Below, in pieces: positions 4,311 through 42,692 of a DNA stretch of 64,000 nt (its first letter is position 1; every line of letters begins with the position of its first letter). The DNA is taken from the NCBI RefSeq assembly GCF_000226095.1, contig NC_016472.1:9486001-9550000 (forward strand), in the 5' to 3' direction. The notes under the pieces are model-generated. The model did not search any database. It was given only the letters and a program-made list of their open reading frames with translations, and was not told where the DNA came from. The DNA is from Thermothelomyces thermophilus ATCC 42464 (taxonomy: Eukaryota; Ascomycota; Sordariomycetes; Sordariales; Chaetomiaceae). Position numbers and translations under genes: made by a program.

Positions 4311-6805
4311 ATGCCGGCCGCCGAGAGAACACCGCAGACGCTCTACGACAAGGTCTTCCAGGCCCACATTGTCGACGAGAAGCTCGATGGCACGATCCTC
4401 CTCTACATCGACCGCCACCTAGTCCATGAGGTCACATCACCAGTGCGTTCCCCAGAATCCCCATTTTTTTCACGCTTGGTATGGTGTTCGGCGACTGACC
4501 TCAGCAGCAAGCATTTGAGGGCCTTGAAGTCGCCGGCCGCAAGGTCAGGAGACCGGACTGCACCCTCGCCACGACCGACCACGTACGCTACGCCTTCCCC
4601 GTCGAGCCTAGACCAGATCTCCGACTGACAATCCTTCTCTAGAATGTTCCCACAACCTCCAGGAAATCTCTCAAGGACATTGCGAGCTTCATCCAGGAAG
4701 AGGATTCCCGGACACAATGCGTAACCCTCGAGGAGAACGTCAAGAAGTTTGGCATCACATATTTTGGACTCAGCGACAAGCGGCAGGGCATTGTGCACGT
4801 TATCGGCCCTGAGCAGGGCTTCACCCTCCCCGGCACCACCGTCGTGTGCGGCGACAGCCACACGTCGACCCATGGCGCCTTCGGCGCGCTCGCCTTCGGC
4901 ATCGGCACCAGCGAGGTCGAGCACGTCCTCGCCACACAATGCTTGATCACCAAGCGCAGCAAGAACATGAGGATACAGATTGACGGCGAGCTGGCCCCGG
5001 GTGTCAGCTCCAAGGACGTGATCCTCCATGCTATCGGCAAGATCGGCACCGCTGGCGGCACCGGCGCCGTCATCGAGTACTGCGGTTCCGTCATTCGCTC
5101 CCTCAGCATGGAGGCCCGCATGTCCATCTGCAACATGTCGATCGAGGGCGGTGCGAGGGCTGGCATGGTTGCCCCGGACGAGACCACCTTCGAGTACCTC
5201 AAGGGGAAGCCGCTGGCTCCCAAGTACGGGTCCGAAGAGTGGAACAAGGCGGTCGCCTATTGGAAGTCGTTGCGGTCCGACCCCGATGCCAAGTACGACA
5301 TCGACGTCTTCATCGACGCCAAGGACATCGTCCCAACCGTCACCTGGGGTACCAGCCCCGAAGACGTCGTCCCCATCACCGGCGTCGTTCCCGACCCGGA
5401 GACCTTCCCTACCGAGGCTAAGAAGGCTGCCGGTCGCCGGATGCTTGAATACATGGGTCTCGTTCCCGGGACTCCGATGGAGGAGATCGTGGTCGACAAG
5501 GTCTTTATCGGCTCTTGCACCAACTCGAGAATCGAGGATCTCCGCGCCGCCGCCATGGTCGTCAAGGGCAAGAAGGTCGCCTCCAACATCAAGCGCGCCA
5601 TGATCGTTCCGGGATCCGGCCTGGTCAAGGAGCAAGCCGAGCGGGAGGGCCTCGACAAGATCTTCCTCGATGCCGGGTTTGAGTGGCGCGAGGCCGGCTG
5701 CAGCATGTGCCTGGGCATGAACCCCGACATCCTCTCCCCCAAGGAGCGGTGCGCCAGCACCAGCAACCGCAACTTTGAGGGCCGCCAGGGCGCCCAGGGC
5801 CGAACGCACCTCATGTCCCCCGTCATGGCTGCCGCCGCCGCCATCGTGGGCAAGCTCGCCGACGTCCGGAAGATCTCGCAGTTCAACGGCAGCCCGCACA
5901 TCGAGGCGGCCATCGCCCCCGAACCCGCCACGTCCTCCGGCGCCTCGGCCTCCGCCGAGAAGGCCCACCCCGACGAGCGCATCGAGACCGACGACGCCGA
6001 GAAGGAAGCCCTGGCCGACCAGCCCCAGGACTCGTCTCCGCAGGTCAACACCACCGTCGCCCACGCCGGGGGCGCTTCGGCCGCCGGTGGTCTCCCCAAG
6101 TTCACCGTCCTCAAGGGCATCGCGGCGCCCATGGAGAAGCCCAACATCGATACGGATGCCATCATCCCCAAGCAGTTCCTCAAGACCATCAAGCGGACCG
6201 GCCTCGGCAAAGCCCTCTTTTACGAGATGCGCTACCTCGAGCCGGGCGTGGAGAACCCGGACTTTGTCCTCAACCGCGAGCCGTACCGCCGAACCAAGAT
6301 CATCGTCTGCACGGGTGCCAACTTCGGCTGCGGCTCGTCGCGCGAGCACGCCCCCTGGGCGCTCAACGACTTTGGCGTCAAGTGCGTCATCGCCCCGTCC
6401 TTTGCCGACATCTTCTTCAACAACTCGTTCAAGAACGGCATGCTGCCCATCCCCATCAAGAACCAGGACGACCTCGAAAAGGTGCACGCCGAGGCCGTGG
6501 CCGGCCGCGAGCTGGAGGTCGACCTCCCCAACCAGCTCATCAAGGATGCCCAAGGGAACACGCTGTGCTCGTTCGAGATCGAGGAGTTCAGGAAGCACTG
6601 CCTGGTGAACGGCCTGGACGACATCGGCCTCACGATGCAGCTGGAGGATAAGATTGCCGAGTTCGAGAAGAAGATGTCGCGCGAGACGCCGTGGCTGGAT
6701 GGGTCCGGGTACCTGAAGCGCAAGGGCGGGAAGCTGGCTGTCAAGGCGGCGCCTGTGCCCAAGACCAATCGGGGGGATGTCAAGACCGAGCCGCTGGAGT
6801 GGTGA
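4311..6805 (+). CDS. LEU1: 3-isopropylmalate dehydratase (leucine biosynthesis)
   Basis: Isomerises 2-isopropylmalate to 3-isopropylmalate in leucine synthesis, using a 4Fe-4S cluster. Three exons: 4311-4442, 4508-4582 and 4643-6805 (introns of 65 and 60 nt, each with a CTGAC branch point), giving 789 residues, the usual length of the fused fungal enzyme. The large aconitase-type domain has the cluster cysteines at about C361 (GSCTNSR) and C422/C425 (CSMCLGMNP). A Ser/Ala/Glu-rich linker (about 485-550) leads to the small swivel domain, which carries the [13 protein letters not shown] and [11 protein letters not shown] substrate-loop motifs. The start ATG follows an A-rich Kozak-like context, and the first exon begins with the family's usual N-terminus. 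The frame is intact throughout. Confidence 0.97.
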
Positions 6806-7214: not shown

Positions 7215-8969
7215 TCACCTCCACCAGAAGCTCACGCTGAAACTCACACTCAGTCCTCTCACATAATGCCACCACCCGACGGGGATATACAACACCTCGC
7301 CTTCGCCGAGCACACAGTCCAAGTACTCGAGCTTCCGGAACTCGTCCTCCCATCCCGCTTCCAGCCCTTCTTCTTCCTTCTCCCCCTCCTCACCGGACCC
7401 CTCCTCGGGCCGGGGAGCGGGAGCGGGACGGTCCCAGCCCTCGAGCACGCCGACGTCGACCCGGCTCGTGTTCCCCATCTCGACGCCGCCCTCGCGGCCC
7501 CTCGCGCGCATCTTGCGCGGCCCGATCCAGGGCGGGTACAGCCGCACGTATTTGCGCCCGACGACCTGGGCGAGCAGGTTGTGGTAGGGGTCCGTGTGGA
7601 GGGGCGTGATGGTCGTTGGGGGGCCGAACCAGGCGTTGAGGTGCGGGCAGTCTTCTTCTTCTTCTTCTCCTCCTCCTCCTCCTCCTCCTCCTTCGTCGTC
7701 GTCGTAGTTGCCCTCGTCGTCATCGCCGACGACGAGTTCATCTCGGGCTGGTGCTTCCCCCCGTGTGGTGGACTTGTCTCCAGAGGAGGGAGGGGTGCTA
7801 TCGGGGTATGGAGGCGGAACGGTGAAGCAGAGGTCCGGGATGAGGATGTCGTTGCGGAGGAGGGGCAGGTGGGTCAGGAGCGGGTGTTGGGCCAGGTAGC
7901 CCGTCTTTTTACTTCCTTCTTGTCCTTCTTCTTCTTCGTTTTGTTGTTGCCGATGTTGTTGTTCGCCGCCGGTGGGAAACGGTGGGGACGAGGGCGGGTC
8001 CGTGATGTGCTCTCTCAGGAACTTGCCAAACGGCAGGATCTGCTGCCCCCACCCGGGGTCGACATAGCTGCGGCCGAGCTCAACGGGGACCAGGCGGCGG
8101 CCGCCAAAGGTGCGCGAGAGGAGGTAGTCGGGCTTGCGCCAGGGGCGGGTGGTCAGCGCCGGCCAGTCGGAGATGAGGCCGGTGATGACGAGCGGGAGCG
8201 GGCCGGGGGCATTGTTCTCGCGCTTGGTGAGGTAGGTCTGGAATTCCTCGAGGGAGAGGTCGTGGACCCGGCGGACGGGGCGGGTGACGGGCGGCGTGAA
8301 GGGTTCGTAAGAGGAGAAGGAGGGAGCGTCTTGCCAGGGGTTCGGGGGAGGAGACTGGGCTGAGGTCTTTGGCCGCTTCTGCGGTCTCTCGTCGAGGGGT
8401 GGCGATGGAGGAGGGCGAGCGGCGCTCTCTGGCGATGCCGCCTGCCAGACCTCCTCGAGCAGAGCAAATGCCCTGTTGATCCACTGCCTGCCTCTTCTGT
8501 CGCCGGCTGCGCCAGCAAGGATGATGGCGAGGTCCAGGGCCTTGATCATGTCGTCCAGCTCCTTCTCGGCCGCGGCCACATCGTACTGCCCTCGCAGCGC
8601 GGCGTCGGTGACCGGCCACGACATGTACAGGAGGGCAAACTTGAGGATGCTCGCGTCGGTGTACAGCTGGCGCCAGCAGGTGGGCAGTTCCTTGAACAGG
8701 TAGGCGTAGAACTTGGAGTAGGCCACGGATATGAGATCGTCTATGCGCCGCAGCAATAAGGCCCTCCCATCCTCGCCCTCGCCCTTGCTCAGGCTGAGCA
8801 GCTGCGAGGCCTGTCGCCCCAAAAGCTGCACCAGAGGCTCGCCGCAGGCTGCTAGGCCCCGGCTTGAGTGGTGGATGCTATCATCCTCCAGTATCTGAGC
8901 GCACTCTGAGGCGATCTGCTCGGCAGCAGCAAGGCATTGCGCCCTCAGCTGCTCGTGCGCGTCTGCCAT
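7215..8969 (-). CDS. KDM8/JMJD5-like JmjC (cupin-8) oxygenase
   Basis: Single-exon gene of 584 residues starting at the ATG at 8967-8969. The N-terminal half is helical, as in JMJD5/KDM8. The C-terminal half is a JmjC/cupin-8 fold starting near a [13 protein letters not shown] stretch, with the family's [18 protein letters not shown] and [17 protein letters not shown] blocks. The Fe(II) ligands are visible: H458 and D460 (HTDPYH) and H568 (GWWHYVRG). It is therefore predicted to be an active 2-oxoglutarate/Fe(II) dioxygenase acting on protein substrates. Between LCFTVPPP and the iron-binding HTD lies a low-complexity insert with Gly8 and Glu5 runs, encoded by CTC/CTT repeats around 7640-7700. 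The substrate (histone, arginine or other) cannot be told from sequence. It ends at a WWR terminus directly after the last strand. Confidence 0.85.
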
Positions 8970-14463: not shown

Positions 14464-17241
14464 ATGTACCTCCCCCGCGCCCTCCTGTCCAAACTGTACC
14501 TCAACCTCCTCAACACGCGCCACCCGCTCTCGCCGCCCGTGCTCATCCTCGTGGCCCTCGAGCCCGACGCGCTCTGCGCCTGCCGCATCCTCACGCGCCT
14601 CTTCAAGCATGACTACATCCCGCACAAGATCCAGCCCGTGGCGGGCTATGCCGACCTCGAGCGCGTCGGCCGCGAGCTGGTGGCGCCCATGATGGACTCG
14701 CGCGGCGGCGCCGGCGGCGTCGTCGTCTGCCTCGGCGTCGGCGGCATGGCGGACCTGGGCACCGTCCTGGGGCTGGAGAGCGAGGAGGAGGACGACGGGA
14801 CCCCCGCGTTCGGCGGGGTCGAGGTGTGGGTTGTCGACTCGCACCGGCCCTGGAACCTGAACAACGTCTTTGGCGGCTTCCCGCTCGAGCCGGAGACGGA
14901 GGAGGCCACCAGCTACGCGGCGAGAACGCCGGCCGGTGTGAGGGCGGGCTGCATCGAGCGGGCATACCGGCCCGGGAAGGGGGGCATCGTGGTGTTCGAC
15001 GACGGGGATATCGAGGACGAACTGGGCAAGGAGAGAGAGGCGTACCTGGCGCTCGTGGATATGCCCGAGGTGGAGGACGACGGGGAGGACCTTGGGGATA
15101 GCGACGAAGACGAAGATGACGATAATAATGACGAGAGCGACGTTGAGGAGCCACCAGTCCTTGCCGAGAAGGTGTCACGAGCTGGCAAGAAGCGAAAGTC
15201 GTGGGATTTCCTGGAGGAGGATAGCGAGGAGGATGACGACAGGCCTAGGCAAAGGCGACGGAGTAACTCGGTGCGTTCGCTCTCTCATTGCCGACTAACC
15301 AATTCCTTCCCCCCCGGCCACGCTGCTCTCTGCTGACTACTTCTCCAGTCCACTCCCATCCCAGACTCGCCCCGGCGTCCGGCGCAGCGCGGGCTCATGT
15401 CCCTGCGAGACGAAGCCGTGTTCTCGAGCGATGCCCTGGAGCCCCCACCTGCCGCTCAGCCATCGCAAGCGCCGTCGGCGCGCACGCTGAGGCGAAGGCT
15501 TCTCCGTCTGCGGCGCAAGAACGAAGCCATCCTGCGAGAATACTATCAACTTGGCACCTCCTACTCGGAACCGGTGTCTTCCATGATGTATTCTCTCGCC
15601 TCGGAGCTCGGCCGCGAAGACAACGACCTGCTCTGGATGGCCATCGTCGGCGTGACCTCCATGGAGCTGTACGGGCGCTCCTCCGCCGGCATCGCCGTGC
15701 CCGTACGCGGTTCCGAGGCCCGCCCCGCCTCGGGCTGGATGGGACTGCGGGGCGCGAGGATACGACAGCTTCTGCGGGATGAAGTACGACGGCTGAATCC
15801 TCCAGAGGTCGGCAACGGGCGGGTCCTACCCGAAAACACGGGCATCATACCAACCACAGCTCGCAGCCCCGAAGACACGAGCATCCGTCTGTCGCCCGAG
15901 CCCAAGTTCCTGCTCATCCGGCACTGGAGCCTCTACGACAGCATGCTGCACTCCCCCTACCTCTTCTCTCGCCTCAAGACGTGGAGCGAAACAGGTCTCA
16001 AGCGGCTGCACAAGCTCCTGGCCAAGATGGGCGTCAGTCTGGTCCAGTGCAAGCAGAGCTACGCGCACATGGATATGATGCTCAAGCGCGAGCTCCGCAC
16101 CAAGCTCCTCAAGTACGCCTCCCTCTACAACCTCGACGAGTTGGTCCCCACCATCGATACGGACGGCAAAGACCGGGGCGGCGCCAAAGACGGTTGGGGG
16201 TTCGTCCGCAGCTGGGGCTGGCGCGCCACCCTCAGCGCGCAAGACGTGGGCGTCGTCATCGGCGCGCTCCTCGAGGTCGGCAAGAACACCACCGCCTCGC
16301 TCTCATCATCATCATCGTCGTCATCATCCTCCTCCTCCTCCGACCCCAACTCCAGCGCCGCGCCGTCCCAGGACCTCTCGGCAGCGGCATCCGAGCCCGC
16401 CAGCGCGGAATGGATCCCCCGCTTCTGGGATGCCTACGACGCGCTGGAGGACATCGAGGCGCTCAAGGCGGGCCTGCCGACGGCGCAGTTCCTGCACAAG
16501 GCCATCTTCACCACGGGCACGACGGTGCTCAAAAAGAAGCAAATCTCGCACCTGCGGGCGTTCCGCATGTGCGTCGTCAAGGACTCGCCCGACGCGGCGC
16601 TGTTCAACCACCCGGGCGCGCTGACCAAGCTGGCGCTGTGGATCGGCGAGGCGCTAGCCGAGCAGGAGCGGGAGGCGTCGGGCGGCCGGCTGGCGCACGG
16701 CGGGCGCGGCACCCCCCTGGTGGTGGCCAGCCTGGACGAGAAGCGGGGCGTCTACGTCGTGGTCGGCACCGGCGGCGGCGGCGGGCCGGACACGGCGTTT
16801 CGGGACCGAGAGGCGGCGCGGAGGAGGGCGGCCGCGAGGGAGGAGAAGGCCAGGGCCAGGGAGGAGGCGAGGAAGGTCAAGGAGAAGCTGAGGGAAGAGA
16901 AGAGGGCCGCCAGGAGGAGGTTGAGAGACGAGGCCGGGAAGCGGGGGGGAGGCGAGGGCGAGGGCGAAGATGCGGAGGAGGAGGACGAGGACGAGGACGA
17001 GACGGAAAGCGAGGAGAGCGAGGAGGATGACGACGATGACGAGAGTGACTTAGAGGAAGAGAACGCTACGCGCGGGCGGGGATACGGCTTGAATCGGTTC
17101 GGGACGGCCTTCCAGGAAGTGGTTGCGGAGACGAACGCACGGGTCAGGATCGACAGCTTTGAGCACTGCGTGGTCGAGGTCAAGAAGGAGGACCTGGGGG
17201 GGTTCTTGGAAAGCCTGAGCATGAAAGCTGTTGTTGGGTGA
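14464..17241 (+). CDS. CDC45: DNA replication initiation factor CDC45
   Basis: Component of the CMG (Cdc45-MCM-GINS) helicase needed for origin firing and fork progression in the nucleus. Two exons, 14464-15270 and 15349-17241 (78-nt intron with GTGCGT donor and GCTGAC branch point), encode 899 residues. The N-terminus (MYLPRALLSKLYLNLL...) is the typical CDC45 start, followed by a degenerate DHH-type fold (VALEPDALCACRILTRLF). A long acidic stretch with a basic KKRK patch follows (about 200-265). Exon 2 carries the conserved REYYQLGTSYSEPVS, DNDLLWMAIVG and LLIRHWSLYDSMLHSPYL blocks and the LAKMGVSLVQCKQSY block. Fungus-specific insertions are a Ser run from TCA/TCC repeats (about 16300-16340) and a basic-acidic coiled segment near the C-terminus (16805-17060). 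Intact. Confidence 0.97.
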
Positions 17242-20210: not shown

Positions 20211-21134
20211 CCGCCGGCGGTTCTCGTTTGTGTGAGCTGCTGGTGATTCTTGAAGGAAACTCTGCGCCCTGTTTGGGAAGCGGAGGGGAGGAAGGGACAA
20301 GAGGAGCAAGGGAGAACTCTGGGGTCGTGGTTGCCAAGGATATTGGAGGGGACCCCTTTCGCGTCAACTGTTCGAGTTGTCCAGCAGATTCGGGTGGTTC
20401 CGCGTAAAGAGAGCATGGGCCTGGAGTGCCCGGCTATCGATCCGGCTGACCCAGCAAGGGTTGCAGTGATGCTGGTGCCGACAGAGGTATTGGGTGGTTT
20501 TGTGAGGCAGTGAAGGCGCAATGAGTCGGCGCTAATGGTCTTCATGTTGTTTGATTTTGGTTGAGAGGAAGGTTCCCTGTAACTTTGTGCGTTTTAGCAA
20601 CTAAATCGTTGATACTGGTCTGTCCCAACTCGGGGCCCCAAACCGAACGTTTGTCGCACGTTCCCAGTCGAAACGGCCGCCGTGTCTCAGGGGGCAACGA
20701 GTTACCGTCATACTAACCCCGGGCGTGTTTGGGTCAGAGAACCTTGGTAGCCTGCTCGAATTCAGGCTGTCGCACGAAAGAACTTTTTGGGGTTCCTGCC
20801 GTTTTTTTTTTAAGTCTCCCGAGAATAACCTTAGAAGGACACATGAACGATGCTAACGAGGGATATCGGCAACGAGACGCGCTGATAGACAAGACACTAA
20901 CCTAGCTAAGAACCAGACCCAACCAAAGCACCCTGAGGCAGCCAGTCAGTGATATCGAACGGACAACGGCAACAGACCGACAACCCCATACAAACCATAC
21001 CGAGGGGAATAGTATATCACAAGTAATAGTCACAAAATCACGCTGCCCACTTCCAACCAACACCGCCACTCCTCCTCCTCCTTCTTCTTCTTCTTCATCT
21101 GGGTCACCGGCAGTCATTCCTTTTCCACGAGTAC
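20211..21134. other. Convergent intergenic region (NCS1 / acyl-CoA synthetase)
   Basis: About 920 nt of 3'-UTR-like sequence between facing genes. A T-run (20802-20811) and a CTC/CTT repeat (21070-21098) are visible, and no gene. Confidence 0.5.
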
Positions 21135-23384
21135 CTAGCTCGAGGCGCCATATGCCTCGGTGACCTCCTTCCTGTACTTGTCGAGAATGCCCCTGCGGTT
21201 GAGCTTCTGGGCAGCTGTGACGAGGCCCTGCGGTAACTGTTAGTCGGGAGCACGCAAGAGGGGTTTTGCAGAGGGAAAAAACAGGGATGCTTACGTTTTG
21301 CGGAGTCCACTCGTCCTCCACAAGAACGACGCCCTCGATGATCTCGATGCCCGAGAGGCCACCAGCGCGGCCCGCGTTCTGGAGCTCCCTCAGGACGGCG
21401 CCTTGCAGCTTCTTATCATGGACCAGCGCTTCGAGGGTCTCGCCCTGGACGCCGATTGACGCGGCCAACTTCTTGAGCGCGGGCTCGGCCGGGACGATGA
21501 TGGCGATGGGCTTGGCCTTGGAGATGTCGGCATAGATGCAAATGTTGGCCACGACGGGGGCCGAGCGGTAGATGGACTCGAGCTTCTCGAGCGCAATGTA
21601 CTCGCCGTTGAGCGTCTTGACCAGGTTCTTCTTGCGGTCAATGATCTTGAGGTGGCCATTCTTGTCCCACTCGCCGATGTCGCCCGTCTTGAACCAGCCG
21701 TCCTCGGTAAGGGCCTCGGCCGTCTCCTTGTCGTTGTCGTAGTAGCCGGAGAGCACCGTGGGGCCGCGCAGCCAGATCTCGCCCTGGGGGTTCGGCTTGT
21801 TGGTGGCGAAGTATCCGGCGTCCGCGAAGTCGACCAGCTTAGCCTCGACAGAGGCCGTCATGGCGCCGATGGATTCCGGAGTCCACTCGAGCGGGTTCTG
21901 CAGCGTGCCCATGGCCGTCGTCTCGGTGAGGCCGTAGCCGATGATCATGGGGCAGATGGCCATGCTGATGAACTTCTGCGTCTCCTTGGAGACGGGACCG
22001 CCGGCGCTCAGGCACAGCTTCATGCGGCCGCCTGTCGCCTCCTTGATCTTCTTAAAGACGACGGCGTCCAGGACGCCGCTACCCGGAAGCCCCAAGGCCA
22101 TCAGCCTCTCCTTGAGTGCCAATGCGCCCCAGAAGAGTCCTCGGACAACGGGGCTGCCGGCATTGACCTTGGCAATGATGCCCTTCTTGACCGTCTCCCA
22201 GACGGCCGGGACGCCGATCAGGACAGTAGGCTTGAACTCGCGAATGTCGCCATTGCAGTTGCGTACCGATGCGTCGGAGAGCGTCTTGGGGTTGCCGTAG
22301 CCTAGGGTAGCGCCCCAGTAGATGGCGGCGTGCTCGAAGACGAACTCGAGAATATGCGCCAGCGGCAGATACGTCAAAAGACCGTCTCCGGGTCCAATAA
22401 AATCCTCGACGATCGGGCTGGCGCCGGCAACTGCACGTCAAAGTTAGCTAGCTGCATCCGTGGGACGTCCGACAGCTTTCTGCCCATTTTGAAAGGGAAA
22501 AAAAAAAAAAAAAAACACCTACCAGCCGCAACCACGGCCGCGTGCGTCACCGGCACACCCTTGGGCGTACCAGTGGAACCGGAGGTGTACATGATGCAGC
22601 AGAGGTCGTCGGGCTTGGGCGGAACCACGTCGACGGGGTTCTCCTCGCCCAACTTCCGCAGGTCGCCGAAGCTGAGGATGTTGATGTGAGGGTACGACTC
22701 CTTGAGCTTGTCGGCGTGATCGGGATTGAGCTGGTGCTGGTCGTTCCAGATGACGTGTTGAATCTCGGTGGCTACAGCGAGGACGCTGGTCAGGGTGGGC
22801 AGGAGATGGGGATCCAGGAAGATGGCCTTGGCCTTGGTGGCGACCATCGAGTACCGCAGGCCCTCCTCGCCCAGCGTGTCGTAGGCCGTGACGATGGGCA
22901 TGCTCTGCGAGCCGGCGCCGTGGGCCATGGCCAGCCAGTTCTGGCTCGTGGCGGCGTAGATGTGAAGGCGGTCGTCCTTGACGAGGCCCAGCTTGCGCAA
23001 ACCGGCACCGAGCTGGTGGGTCAAGCGCTCGTAGTCGGTGTAGCTAATGTACTCGTACGGGCTCATCTCGAAAAAGGTCCACGACTTCTCGACCTCGCGC
23101 TCCTCGCCGTTGATCACCTTCTTGACCATCTTCTTGTCCTGATGGGTCCGCAGCAGCTTGCGCGAGCCCATGCACTTGGCATTACCAAACTTGGCGACGC
23201 TCACGCGGACGAGCTCGTGGACGGTCGTGATCTCATCGTTGGGCTTGGTGTACAAGCCATTGACGGCGAGGGGGTGCCTGCGAACGGGAGTTTCGCCTTC
23301 GACGGGTTGCTGGCCGGGCACCTCGACCGAGAAGGGAGGCGTCGCGCTCATGCGCGGAACCAAGTGCACCTGCTTTGCTGCCAT
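21135..23384 (-). CDS. Long-chain acyl-CoA synthetase (FAA-type)
   Basis: Activates long-chain fatty acids to acyl-CoA using ATP, via an acyl-adenylate. Three exons on the minus strand, 23384-22523, 22430-21295 and 21227-21135 (introns of 92 and 67 nt), encode 696 residues, the usual FAA1/FAA4 length. Adenylation-family signatures: P-loop MYTSGSTGTPKG (about 265-276), YGLTETTAMG, GEIWLRGPTVLSGYY, GWFKTGDIGEW, then the fatty-acyl-CoA synthetase motif leading to IIDRKKNLVKTLNGEYIALE, which includes the hinge and the catalytic Lys region. The small last exon supplies the RGILDKYRKEV terminus. Intron 1 begins with GTAGGTG followed directly by a T-run of about 18 on the coding strand. It resembles LACS of peroxisome/ER/lipid droplet, but I see no clear terminal SKL, so the location is uncertain. 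Confidence 0.95.
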
Positions 23385-34535: not shown

Positions 34536-35443
34536 GGTTGGAAAAAGAACTTCTTTGGCCGCGAGACGCTTACAAGTGAGGAAAAGGGAGCTTGGGTGAC
34601 GAGAGGGCTGGCGTTGGATCGGGCTTCTGGAATGGGGGTTGGCGAGAAGACGGATGGTAGCTGTTCGTGGTGTCTGGGTGGGAACGGTTTCTTTCTCAGG
34701 GCTCGGTAACCTTTTTTTTTTTTTTTGACTAACGCAAAGTATTGTTATTCGTCATAGGTCTCCTGATAGAAGTACAAGCGGAATCATACCCCCAAGTCTG
34801 AGCTGGATTCATGGATATGGTGACTCGCGTCGGCCTAAAGGAGGTGTGCCGGGGGGATTGGCGTCAAGGCCGGTTGATGCTCTGCCGCCATCTGACGAAG
34901 TCTGCCGAGAAACCGTCGAGAGGACTCGCCCAACTCAGGTACGAGCGCTTGGCCAAAGAAATCATTGTTGTCGCAGCATTAGAGGAACCAGCTCGGTCAG
35001 ATTCTCTCGATGCTCGACGCAATGTCTGATTGTCTCTCAACCCGCCAACATGCGTATATATGAAACCTAGGCAGGCGGATTTTGAGTTGTGTCAGCAAGA
35101 CCGGGGTCACTGACGGGTAACTACTCGCCATTTTCTAACAATCCGTTTGCACGCTTGACCAGTTCAGCCTCATCCATTACCATTGAAGAGATTCATCTAT
35201 TCTCATCTGATGACCACTCTCTGTCCAGTCCAGTCGGTAGGCCGCCCATGGGCCATCGTTAACCGATCTATCTATCCATCTATGTCATTCACTCATTCAT
35301 TTCATTCCGAAAACGCGTTACCCGGCTTCCCCAAACCATCCCATCTTAAGCCTGATGTCTGTTGACACCAAACTTACCGGGCCTCGGACTTCTTGGCCCC
35401 CCGACCCTCCGTACCAAGTTTCATTCTTGTACAGAAGTGGTTA

Positions 35444-35482
<39 letters not shown>

Positions 35483-35535
35483 TGTGTGTGTCTGTCTGTC
35501 TTACACTCTCGCTATCACCCATCGATTGAGAGAGA
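34536..35535. other. Convergent intergenic region with microsatellite
   Basis: 1 kb between facing 3' ends. It contains a T-run (34711-34725), ATCTATCTATC-like patches near 35270 and the CT/GT microsatellite at 35443-35501. Confidence 0.55.
35443..35501. repeat. Compound (CT)n(GT)n microsatellite
   Basis: About 11 CT units pass directly into about 13 GT units and a short TCTG tail, 35 nt from the stop codon of the Zn2Cys6 gene. Confidence 0.95.
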
Positions 35536-37575
35536 TCAGGATCGACGGACCAGAGCGTCCCATAGGAAAGGTAGACACCCGGGCCCCGTCAATGCCCTTG
35601 GCGGCTCTGCTCCTCCTCCTCCTCCTGCCCGACCCCTCATCTTCAGTTCGTTGTCGATTGCCCGCTCGATCAAGCTAGTGTCGACCGTCATCGTCGCCGT
35701 CATGTTTGGCACCCCCCGGCTCTCACCGTTGGGGGTCAGTATTTGGGCTAGGAGGTTGTCTGCCGCGGCTCGTGTGGGGTTATGGGGATCTGGGATGTGA
35801 GCTGCGACGAGATAGAGGGGGCCGAGAAGGTGGGTGTGAAGGTTTGTTGGGGTGCGAACAGGTTGTCGTTGTTGTTGTTGCTGTTGCTGCTGCTGTTGCT
35901 GTTGGGAGATGGAAGCGGCGAAAAGTCTGGAAGTAAAATGGAGGATTGGGTGAAGGAAGGACGTGGCTGGGGCGTCGAGTTGATCGTTTGCCAACGGAGG
36001 CGGTAGAGGAAGGGTTGGATGGTGGAGGTGGTGATTTAGGTGTTGAGAGGTGGCGGGGAAAGGGTTGGCGTTGGGAGTGAAGGTGGTGCCGCCTGCGGCG
36101 TTGGCGATGATAAACCGAGCACAGAGAAAGTAAATGAGGTCGAGGTAGAGGGCGAAGAGTTCCGGACTGGTTGGGTCGAGGGTGCCGAAACGGGATGGAG
36201 AGCAGAAGTCGGCTACGAGGAGGCCGAGACGGGCGCTTCGGGCGACGAGGCAGGCCTGTTGACGCTGCTGGACGGGGTCGGCCCAGAACACGACGGCGGA
36301 CGACGAGTCCCCGGCGGCGGCGGCGGCGGCGATCTCGTGCATACGGGCCATGACGTCGTGCTGGAAGCAGGACATGGCCATGCGAGCATGGGCTATGTCG
36401 GGGAAGAGCGAGTCGCTAGAGCCGTCGTCGAAGCGGCGAGCGCGGTAAGCACGCTCCGAGACGACGGGTTGGATGCCGTGTGTGAAGAAGCAGGCCGAGC
36501 GTTCGAACCGGGCGAATAGCCGGATGATGTCGGGAATCTGAAGGGAGGTCCCCTGCAGGTCGAAAGGCCAGACGAAGACGGAGCGGTCGGCGAGGAAGTC
36601 GAAGGCGGAGTCGGGGAGGGACTGGAGGATACGCAGACCGTTGGTCAGGTGAGTGACGGCCACTTCGTGATTCCCGCGAAGGGACTCGAGCGAGACGAAA
36701 GCCAGACAGCAGACAAGGGTGAGACGGACGCTCTCGATGGCCGAAGAGCCGGCGTGGGTCTGTAGCCGCTCGATGGATCGGTTGTAATGCTGGATCGTGA
36801 GGACTTCGAGGTCGGCCCGGCTGAGGCCGTCGATCGCGGGCTCGTGCGGATACTGGAAAATCTGGTAGGCGGCTGCCAGAGCCACCACAGCGTGCTTGAC
36901 GGCCTCGTCCTGAGAACCGGTCAAGGGGTTCAATCTCGACCAGAAGGCGGCGAAGTTGCAGAACTGGGCGGAGACGCGGCCGGCCGTGGCCGCGCGGAAG
37001 CGGGCAAACAAGCGCCTCTCAGTCTCGGTGCCGTCGATGTCGGCCTCGATTCGGCGCATAGACCTGAGGGACTCGTTCCACTCGCAGGCCCGGACAAACT
37101 CGGCTCGCGCCTTCTCGGCCATTTGGCTGGCGCCCGGCGAGTTGTATCGGGCGAGAGCGAACTTGTCATAGCCATCGCAGGTCCGGCCGGTGGATGTGCA
37201 CCGGAGACAAGCAGGTTTCCCCTCGTCACACTTCACGCGACGGATTCTGGGGCCGGTCAGCCTGGTCACCGCCCACGAAGGGCGGACATCGACGATCAAC
37301 TTACTTGCTGCGGAAGAAGGGGGGGGATGCAGGGTTAGCGGGTGGTGCATACATCACATACATTTCTTGTACGAATCAGGGGAATAGCACGGAGGGTTAG
37401 TGTCGTAAACAGGGACTCACCATGTAATACAGCCCGTGCGGACCTTTGGCTTGCTTGCCCTCGTGCGCTTTGGCTTGGGCGGATCCGGCGGAGCCGCAGC
37501 CGGGGAGGGCGACGGGCTGGTCGGGTTGCTGCTTAAGTCGATGCTCGAACGGTTCGAGTGCGACGGCTGGGACAT
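35536..37575 (-). CDS. Zn2Cys6 transcription factor (fungal-specific TF domain type 2)
   Basis: Nuclear regulator with an N-terminal zinc cluster. Proposed exons: 37575-37421, a 3-nt micro-exon 37307-37305, and 37246-35536, giving 622 residues. The cluster is complete only with the micro-exon: C49, C52, C59, C66, C69 and C76 in CX2CX6CX6CX2CX6C spacing (GCITCKIRRVKCDEGKPACL). Intron 1 (113 nt) has GTGAGT, GCTAAC and CCGCAG; intron 2 (58 nt) has GTAAGT, GCTGAC and CCCAG. The large C-terminal part (YNRSIERLQTHAGSSAIESVRLTLVC and onward) matches the Fungal_trans_2 regulatory domain, with a Gln run from CAA/CAG repeats (35870-35910). The start ATG at 37573-37575 precedes a Ser/Pro-rich and basic arm (KPKRTRASKPKVR). 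Targets cannot be deduced. Confidence 0.87.
37305..37307 (-). other. Predicted 3-nt micro-exon (CAA) of the Zn2Cys6 gene
   Basis: CAA on the minus strand, flanked by ...CCGCAG and GTAAGT. It supplies the third base of Cys52 and the first two bases of Lys53. Skipping it gives TGA at that codon. Retaining intron 1 gives ACA TGG TGA, and retaining intron 2 gives TGC AAG TAA. Only its inclusion preserves the zinc cluster. Confidence 0.7.
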
Positions 37576-41191: not shown

Positions 41192-42692
41192 ATTCGTCAC
41201 TGTCCCGCGCCGAGACTCTCGGTCTCGTGTCCCTCACGGCCGCCTGCGTCGCCATCCTCGCCAACGCTTTCCAGGGCGATGACAAGCCGCTCATGGTGTC
41301 GCTGGCCCTGAGCGGGCTGGCCTTCAGCGCCACCTTTGCCCTGATCCGCCGGCTCGGCCCGACCTTCATCAAGGCCGGTTTCAAGGGCGTCGACATGAGC
41401 AAGCACAACCGCAAGGAGCTGCCCGAGTGCATGGGTGCCGTGTGCGCCGCCGTCTACCTCTTTGCCATGATTGTGTTTGTTCCCTTTGCCTTCTACAAGG
41501 ACGTCGTCGCGGCTACGAGTGGAGGCGGCAATCGGGACGTTGTGCTGCAGGTCGAACATGTGCAGCAGGGCCGCTTCCTGCATCGGTTCCCGCACAGCAA
41601 GGTAAGCTTTTACTATTATTATTATTATTATTATCGCCAAACGCTATCTACCTTTATCTATCGGGGTTTTTAACTTGGCTATGGTGCGTTCCCCCCGTTG
41701 ACACTGGAAAACCCCAGCTCTCGTCCTACCTATCAGCCATCGTCTCGCTGCACACCATCGCCTCCCTGGGGCTCGCCGACGACCTCTTCGACATCCGCTG
41801 GCGGCACAAGTTCTTCATCCCCGCCTTCGCCGCCATCCCCCTCCTCGTGGTCTACCGGGTCGACTTTGGCGTGACCTCCATCGTCGTCCCGATCCAGCTG
41901 CAGCCCTACCTCGGCCAGCTCGTCGACCTGGGCGCGCTCTACTACGTCTACATGGCCGCCGTGGCCATCTTCAGCCCCAACAGCATCAACATCCTCGCCG
42001 GCATCAACGGCATCGAGGTGGCCCAGTCCGTCGTCATCGGCGCCCTGATCGCCCTCAACGACGCCCTCTACCTGCTCACCCCTTACCCGCACCCGGCCAC
42101 CGACTCGCACCTCTTCTCGCTCTCCTTCCTCCTCCCCTTCCTCGCCGTCTCGCTGGCCCTGCTCTACCACAACTGGTACCCGGCCCGCGTCTTCGTCGGC
42201 GACACGTACTGCTACTTTGCCGGCATGGTGTTCGTCGTCGTCAGCATCCTGGGCCACTTCAGCAAGACGCTGGTGCTGCTGCTGCTCCCCCAGATCTTCA
42301 ACTTTGTCTACTCCACCCCGCAGCTCTTCGGCCTCGTCCCCTGCCCGCGCCACCGCCTGCCCCGCTTCAACGCCCGCACCGGCCTGCTCGAGCCGAGCGT
42401 CACGGCCTGGTCCGAGGCGCGCCAGCCGCGGTTCAAGCTTGTCGATTGGGGGCTGAGGCTGCTGGGGCGGTTGGGCCTCTTGAAGGTGGTGGTGGATGAG
42501 GAGGGAAGGCTGGTCGAGACGAGCAACTTCACCTTGTTGAACCTGTGGTTGGTGTGGAGGGGCCCGCTGCGGGAGGACCGGCTGGCGGCCGAGATCACGG
42601 CGGCCCAGGCGGCGCTAGGCTTGTTTGGGTTGTTTGTGAGGCATTCATTGGCGAGGCTGGTATTTAAAGAGGATAACTGGAGCATACACTAG
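41188..42692 (+). CDS. ALG7: UDP-GlcNAc:dolichyl-phosphate GlcNAc-1-phosphotransferase
   Basis: Catalyses the first committed step of N-glycan assembly at the ER membrane (the tunicamycin target). Two exons, 41188-41601 and 41718-42692 (116-nt intron with GTAAGC donor, containing a TAT repeat), give 462 residues. The protein is almost entirely hydrophobic with about ten membrane segments. Family motifs include MSKHNRKELPECMGAV, the acidic GLADDLFDIRWRHK loop, NSINILAGINGIEVAQ, and VFVGDTYCYFAGM. The gene starts at the ATG at 41188, which overlaps the stop of a short upstream reading frame (MTVDRP). It converges on SEH1. No missing catalytic residue is seen. Confidence 0.96.

Follow-up and report, generated by a model that had tools for sequence, protein, structure and literature searches.

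How can a regulator acquire an intact zinc cluster when two introns, separated by no more than three nucleotides, interrupt the coding of its second cysteine and of the lysine that follows? This question is raised by a gene on the minus strand of the 64,000-nucleotide stretch of Thermothelomyces thermophilus DNA that we analysed (hereafter, the window). A sequence-only reading had proposed that the trinucleotide CAA is a micro-exon completing the zinc cluster of a Zn2Cys6 regulator, that mis-splicing would truncate the factor, and that inclusion of CAA might serve as an on/off switch.

Gene structure and predicted product

Upon checking the coordinates on the sequence, we found the exon and intron boundaries of that reading to be correct to the base (Table 1). 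Joining exon 1, CAA and exon 3 yields a 622-aa protein with VRTGCITCKIRRVKCDEGKPACLRC, in which CAA restores the zinc cluster, CITCKIRRVKC, and supplies part of a zinc-ligand codon, just as had been claimed. Exon 1 carries Cys49 and ends with the first two bases of the codon for Cys52, CAA contributes the third base of Cys52 (TG/C, a zinc ligand) together with the first two bases of Lys53 (AA/A), and the same three bases also occupy -3 to -1 in the donor of intron 2. Exon 3 begins with AATCCGTCGC and stays open over its whole length up to the stop codon, so that no more introns are needed. From the joined sequence, the expected mature junction is ...TTACATG-CAA-AATCCGTC..., and the predicted transcript strings are TGTATTACATGCAAAATCCGTCGC with the micro-exon included, TGTATTACATGAATCCGTCGC with CAA skipped, TGTATTACATGGCTGACCGG with a single 159-nt intron used, TTACATGCAAGTAAGTTGATC with intron 1 removed and intron 2 kept, and CCGCAGCAAAATCCG with intron 2 removed and intron 1 kept.

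The product is a predicted DNA binder of the Zn2Cys6 transcription factor class. Its six cysteines, in CITCKIRRVKC...CLRCTSTGRTC, follow the CX2CX6C...CX2CX6C pattern of the family, and the spliced protein matches PF00172 from profile position 1 (35.6 bits, E 1e-08, cut-off 21), while the unspliced reading frame that lacks exon 1 scores 27.7 bits and begins only at position 7. Six PDB sequence matches at E up to 0.01 are HAP1/CYP1, PPR1 and GAL4. Residues 164-309 show a weak similarity to Fungal_trans_2 (PF11951; 18.0 bits, E 0.0014), below the cut-off of 21. Among known genes of T. thermophilus, the leads considered were res1 (PMC11708020) and MtTRC-1, described as a Cys2His2 protein (PMC9552611). 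A dinucleotide repeat lies directly 3' of the stop codon, and a glutamine-repeat tract lies within the coding region. By Pfam the neighbouring genes are unremarkable, with a match for 5 of the 10 large open reading frames of the window that were scanned.

Table 1. Positions of the gene parts, alternative readings and neighbouring genes in the window, and of the other predicted zinc-cluster micro-exons in the genome (positions without a contig label are window positions)
Feature	Position	Strand	Description
Exon 1	37421..37575	-	155 nt; ATG at 37575, end ...TGT ATT ACA TG
Intron 1	37308..37420	-	113 nt; GTGAGT...GCTAAC...CCGCAG; without counterpart in paralogue L034
Branch-point-like hexamer, intron 1	37334..37339	-	GCTAAC
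Micro-exon	37305..37307	-	3 nt; CAA
Intron 2	37247..37304	-	58 nt; GTAAGT...GCTGAC...CCCCAG; position of the single intron of L034
Branch-point-like hexamer, intron 2	37256..37261	-	GCTGAC
Exon 3	35536..37246	-	remaining zinc cluster (IRRVKCDEGKPACLRCTSTGRTCDGY) and C-terminal region; stop codon included
Best-donor single-intron alternative	37262..37420	-	159 nt; GTGAGT to ACCAG; in frame
Unspliced 604-codon ORF	35536..37350	-	starts at an ATG within intron 1 and reads on across CAA and intron 2 to the stop codon of exon 3
CA/GA dinucleotide repeat	35441-35500	-	
Glutamine-repeat tract	about 35861-35903	-	
Aconitase	4796-6802	+	Pfam match
Cupin/JmjC protein	7218-8969	-	Pfam match
CDC45	15397-17238	+	Pfam match
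AMP-binding enzyme	20905-22377	-	Pfam match
Glycosyl transferase family 4	41427-42689	+	Pfam match
L041	C7:3042292-3042375	-	two consecutive predicted micro-exons, 13 nt (GGTGCACTTTCTG) and 10 nt (TAAGGAAAAG)
L048	C1:8430487-8430588	-	predicted 18-nt micro-exon (ACATGCCATGCCCGCAAA), needed for RACETCHARKVRCDAASLGVPCTNC
L039	C4:3131456-3131539	+	TACATCTCAATTGCATG, a likely micro-exon of 17 nt whose end falls within the codon of the first zinc Cys; product KRNRYISIACNECKRRKIKC
L045	C4:4117123-4117203	-	likely 25-nt micro-exon that codes for zinc cysteines 1 and 2; product GKRKRPLSVSCELCKQRKVKC

Alternative joinings

We found the micro-exon to be required for the zinc cluster. Skipping it creates TG/A and ends translation after 51 aa, and the early stops that had been claimed for retention of either intron are likewise present, after 52 aa with intron 1 retained and after 53 aa with intron 2 retained. 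Upon enumerating single introns (GT-AG, GC-AG or AT-AC, at least 42 nt long, with the frame of exon 3 kept, donors starting 90 nt upstream of the exon 1 end and acceptors reaching as far as 40 nt inside exon 3), none of the 40 frame-keeping models restored CX2CX6C. The alternative with the best donor is a canonical, frame-keeping GT-AG intron of 159 nt, whose product reads CITWLTGPRIRRVKC. We regard it as very improbable, as it loses Cys52 and destroys CX2CX6C where the paralogue L034 retains TGCVTCK, and it leaves the strong intron 2 donor and the CCGCAG acceptor unexplained. A separate solver agreed in offering no one-intron solution for the window gene, and its best two-intron score was 47.9, as compared to a best of 28.5 across the 15 other clusters interrupted on the N-terminal side that do have a one-intron solution. 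The lengths of the two introns, 113 and 58 nt, lie inside the span of 48 to 223 nt of the solver's best one-intron models. We also considered, by eye, a second intron nested within intron 1, which holds a further branch-like CACTAAC and an internal GTATGT; this was rejected, since the leftover 4-nt exon AAAT gives TGA.

A weaker micro-exon, TAA, lies 4 nt further on (AAG/TAA/GTTGAT) and would leave introns of 117 and 54 nt. It restores the frame, has no stop across the junction and yields an identical protein, the junction strings being TGCAAAATC for the CAA reading and TGTAAAATC for the TAA reading. With an acceptor-plus-donor score of 9.4 versus 24.9 for CAA, TAA as the exon in use is barely plausible.

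Splice signals compared with chance

The existence of a frame-restoring exon is by itself uninformative. Some frame-restoring AG/micro-exon/GT arrangement of up to 30 nt occurred in 10,141 of 20,000 dinucleotide shuffles and in 30,876 of 60,000 genomic segments; as about half of random sequences thus contain one, the claim depends on signal quality. Here the site stands out: its score of 24.9 was attained in 0 of 20,000 shuffles and, with the real site excluded, in 0 of 60,000 segments of the same genome, sampled with overlaps from a total of 695,772 bases (the window minus the site plus fetched loci, both strands). When the real site was retained, the score was attained by 11 window segments in 20,000, every one of them with a 3-nt exon. 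The scoring matrices behind these values were set by hand to the fungal consensus, as opposed to being fitted to the T. thermophilus genome. The signals, the frame, the lack of a single-intron alternative and the intron position in a paralogue can all be read from the DNA, and CAA is very probably a real micro-exon.

Probable order of splicing and the proposed switch

We suggest that two ordinary GT-AG introns lie side by side within the coding of the zinc cluster, with the exon CAA between them, that their splicing is sequential, required and unregulated, and that intron 1 was inserted later, a reading that we hold with good confidence. Introns 1 and 2 would be recognized by intron definition and excised in turn, with an exon of extreme size between them. 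Given the footprints of the spliceosome, U1 on the intron 2 donor would clash with a complex assembled at the acceptor of intron 1, and the two introns are therefore probably processed sequentially. Removal of intron 1 first would recreate the donor ATGCAA/GTAAGT, the same context as in the paralogue L034. Failure to include CAA, or retention of an intron, would bring a stop at codons 52-54 and would yield no DNA-binding protein. The order of splicing, the constitutive use of CAA and the gain of intron 1 are, in our view, the most likely course of events.

Splicing at this site is a gate in a trivial sense, and constitutive, consecutive splicing is more likely than the on/off switch that had been proposed. 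Under such a switch, conditions would alter the inclusion of CAA and thereby turn DNA binding on or off, or a protein free of the zinc cluster would be made from a downstream start. There is a precedent in Xlr2 of Trichoderma virens, where inclusion of a 20-nt micro-exon encoding PCRRCE is reported to depend on glucose (PMC11121469), and a 604-codon open reading frame begins inside intron 1 and stays open through intron 2; its product would be without Cys49 and Cys52. The openness of intron 2, over 58 nt, is easily chance, however, the matching frame in L034 is closed by a stop shortly before the cluster, and both introns score high at donor and acceptor, which does not favour regulated skipping. 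We consider the switch quite unlikely. As an observation on annotation, a gene finder could choose the 604-codon frame and lose the first half of the zinc cluster.

Origin of the first intron

The T. thermophilus genome (38,744,216 bp in 7 contigs) was the one fungal genome searched. The nearest paralogue within it, L034 (C3:2445330), shares 42% identity over 126 aa. It reads KKVRTGCVTCKIRKVKCDE, and its single intron, of 143 nt, lies at ACATGCAA/GTAAGT, which is the position of intron 2; across the stretch that corresponds to the end of exon 1 it shows VRTGCVTCK. In a second paralogue, L038, the TGCAA/ position is likewise occupied by an intron, whose donor, GTTGCG, is weak. The statement in the sequence-only reading that related genes have a single intron at TGCAA/GTAAGT is thus borne out, exactly in L034 and in position in L038. 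As L034 has its one intron at the intron 2 position, the 113-nt intron 1 is the extra one, and intron 2 appears to occupy the older, shared position. The simplest reading is that intron 1 was gained in the lineage of the window gene, three bases upstream of the intron 2 donor, with one clear paralogue (L034) and one with a weak donor (L038) as its basis. In L041, another Zn2Cys6 gene, an intron likewise follows the TG of the second Cys, which makes a loss in L034 a conceivable alternative.

We looked for a source of intron 1 and rejected two candidates. An introner or other propagating intron found no support, as a search for a second genomic copy of intron 1 plus CAA (116 nt; E up to 10, passing over simple repeats and very common words) returned the self-match only. 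Likewise, a copy of intron 2 or of the L034 intron was rejected because the local alignments were no better than those of shuffles, with the alignment score reached by 398 of 1000 shuffles for introns 1 and 2, by 121 of 1000 for intron 1 and the L034 intron, and by 103 of 1000 for intron 2 and the L034 intron. Outside this genome, relatives were sought with the exon 3 protein stretch, and none of the matches from pattern scans of viral (18) and prokaryotic (28) contigs encodes one, a result that is silent on fungi.

The inserted stretch might instead have broken the original donor region and left a pseudogene, as the divergence from the paralogue starts exactly at the donor. This is scarcely credible, given that the insertion opens with GTGAGT, closes with CCGCAG and contains GCTAAC, that exon 3 is open in full length to its stop, and that the spliced zinc cluster is intact. 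Under the favoured reading, a later intron gain, the gene clearly illustrates the insertion of an intron three bases away from an older donor, in which both sites are probably not bound simultaneously and the order of removal would have to matter.

Predicted micro-exons in other Zn2Cys6 genes

The genome holds at least 88 matches to PF00172, a lower bound since clusters split into small pieces can escape detection; 64 of these clusters are uninterrupted and 24 are interrupted. We ran the solver on the 19 clusters with an interruption on the N-terminal side, allowing introns of 42-420 nt and micro-exons of up to 30 nt. It gave at least one one-intron solution in 15, none for L052, L041 and L048 (the window gene being among these), and left L050 unsolved, which by eye has one intron. 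All five interruptions on the C-terminal side have one-intron solutions, and for one of them, L108, the top-ranked solution is implausible and a lower-ranked one looks better. Predicted micro-exons in the zinc cluster were obtained in 5 of the 24 interrupted clusters: 3 nt in the window gene, 13 and 10 nt in L041, 17 nt in L039, 18 nt in L048, which we take to resemble the cutinase factor ctf1/FarA-type regulators, and 25 nt in L045. Visual inspection gave the 17-nt exon of L039, the 25-nt exon of L045 and the 13-nt exon of L041. The solver missed the first two and offered one-intron solutions instead, which use a weak donor in L039 and, in L045, read back through an intron that lies upstream.

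Random segments again served to gauge these predictions. The score of the 18-nt exon of L048 was reached in 0 of 20,000 segments, as was that of the 17-nt exon of L039, of the 25-nt exon of L045 and of the 13-nt exon of L041, each in its own set of 20,000; for L039, 8,047 of 20,000 segments contain some weaker solution. The 10-nt exon of L041 is moderately beyond chance, its score being reached by 30 of 20,000 segments.

Failed inclusion of such exons would remove or break the DNA-binding domain, and a shared checkpoint is thus conceivable. On this proposal, the zinc-cluster segment would be a recurrent site of micro-exons whose splicing sets the amount of active factor, for example with temperature or carbon source in a thermophile such as this one, and Xlr2 would be one case of it; we find it doubtful. 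The apparent recurrence, predicted across several genes, is the most interesting lead from this work. Very small exons are reported to escape gene finders and read aligners often (PMC12940212, PMC11121469), and a transcription factor of this kind may hence lack a functional DNA-binding domain in its annotation. For the window gene, misannotation might take the form of the false 159-nt intron or of a downstream start. Five clusters with predicted micro-exons, among at least 88 PF00172 matches, suggest an annotation gap in a large family of fungal regulators.

Comparison with known systems

The earlier statement that three-nucleotide exons are very rare is fair and needs tempering, in that an exon of 1 nt is described in Fusarium (PMC12940212) and P450 exons of Phanerochaete, the shortest of them 6 bp, are reported too (PMC1184071). 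Among the open-licence papers listed by our searches, most of them judged by that listing, we found neither a 3-nt exon in a fungal gene nor a survey of zinc-cluster micro-exons. A 3-bp, alternatively spliced micro-exon is reported for Drosophila homothorax, which resembles the window gene as a transcription-factor gene with a three-base exon and, by its description, is set apart as an animal gene of another fold (PMC7392893).

The pair of introns also recalls stwintrons, described as arrangements in which the donor, the branch point or the acceptor of an external intron is interrupted by an internal one, with no exon between (PMC5639578). As in stwintrons, the introns here are closely coupled, would be removed consecutively, and include one that would have arisen where an older intron already lay (PMC5639578). 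We rejected this class for the window gene, as both introns have a complete GT donor, a CTRAC branch-like site and a CAG acceptor, and CAA is exonic. A further stwintron paper, searched by passage for micro-exons and for the genus, returned no match (PMC12403724).

The closest counterpart is Xlr2, likewise from a filamentous ascomycete and with a micro-exon inside a Zn2Cys6 cluster that is needed for the DNA-binding domain (PMC11121469). As reported there, its inclusion was followed by RNA-seq, and the JGI gene model had missed the exon (PMC11121469). It differs from the window gene in that its exon encodes PCRRCE later in the cluster, is conserved in the genus and is accompanied by a shorter isoform that is made (PMC11121469), whereas the exon in the window has 3 nt, sits at the second cysteine and the lysine, and is predicted from sequence. 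Fusarium CYP621A provides a parallel in the reasoning: an ultra-short exon between two ordinary introns, again in filamentous ascomycetes, was recognized since other joinings break a conserved motif, and its 1-nt exon is reported in 20 orthologues and confirmed by SRA reads (PMC12940212). It differs in its size of 1 nt and in belonging to the P450 family, while the window case is one gene. Micro-exons are also said to be frequent in the P450 genes of Phanerochaete chrysosporium, although these concern basidiomycete P450 proteins, with exons of 2-10 residues and no DNA-binding domain (PMC1184071). Micro-exons are thus already known in fungi, and the window gene adds an extremely small example.
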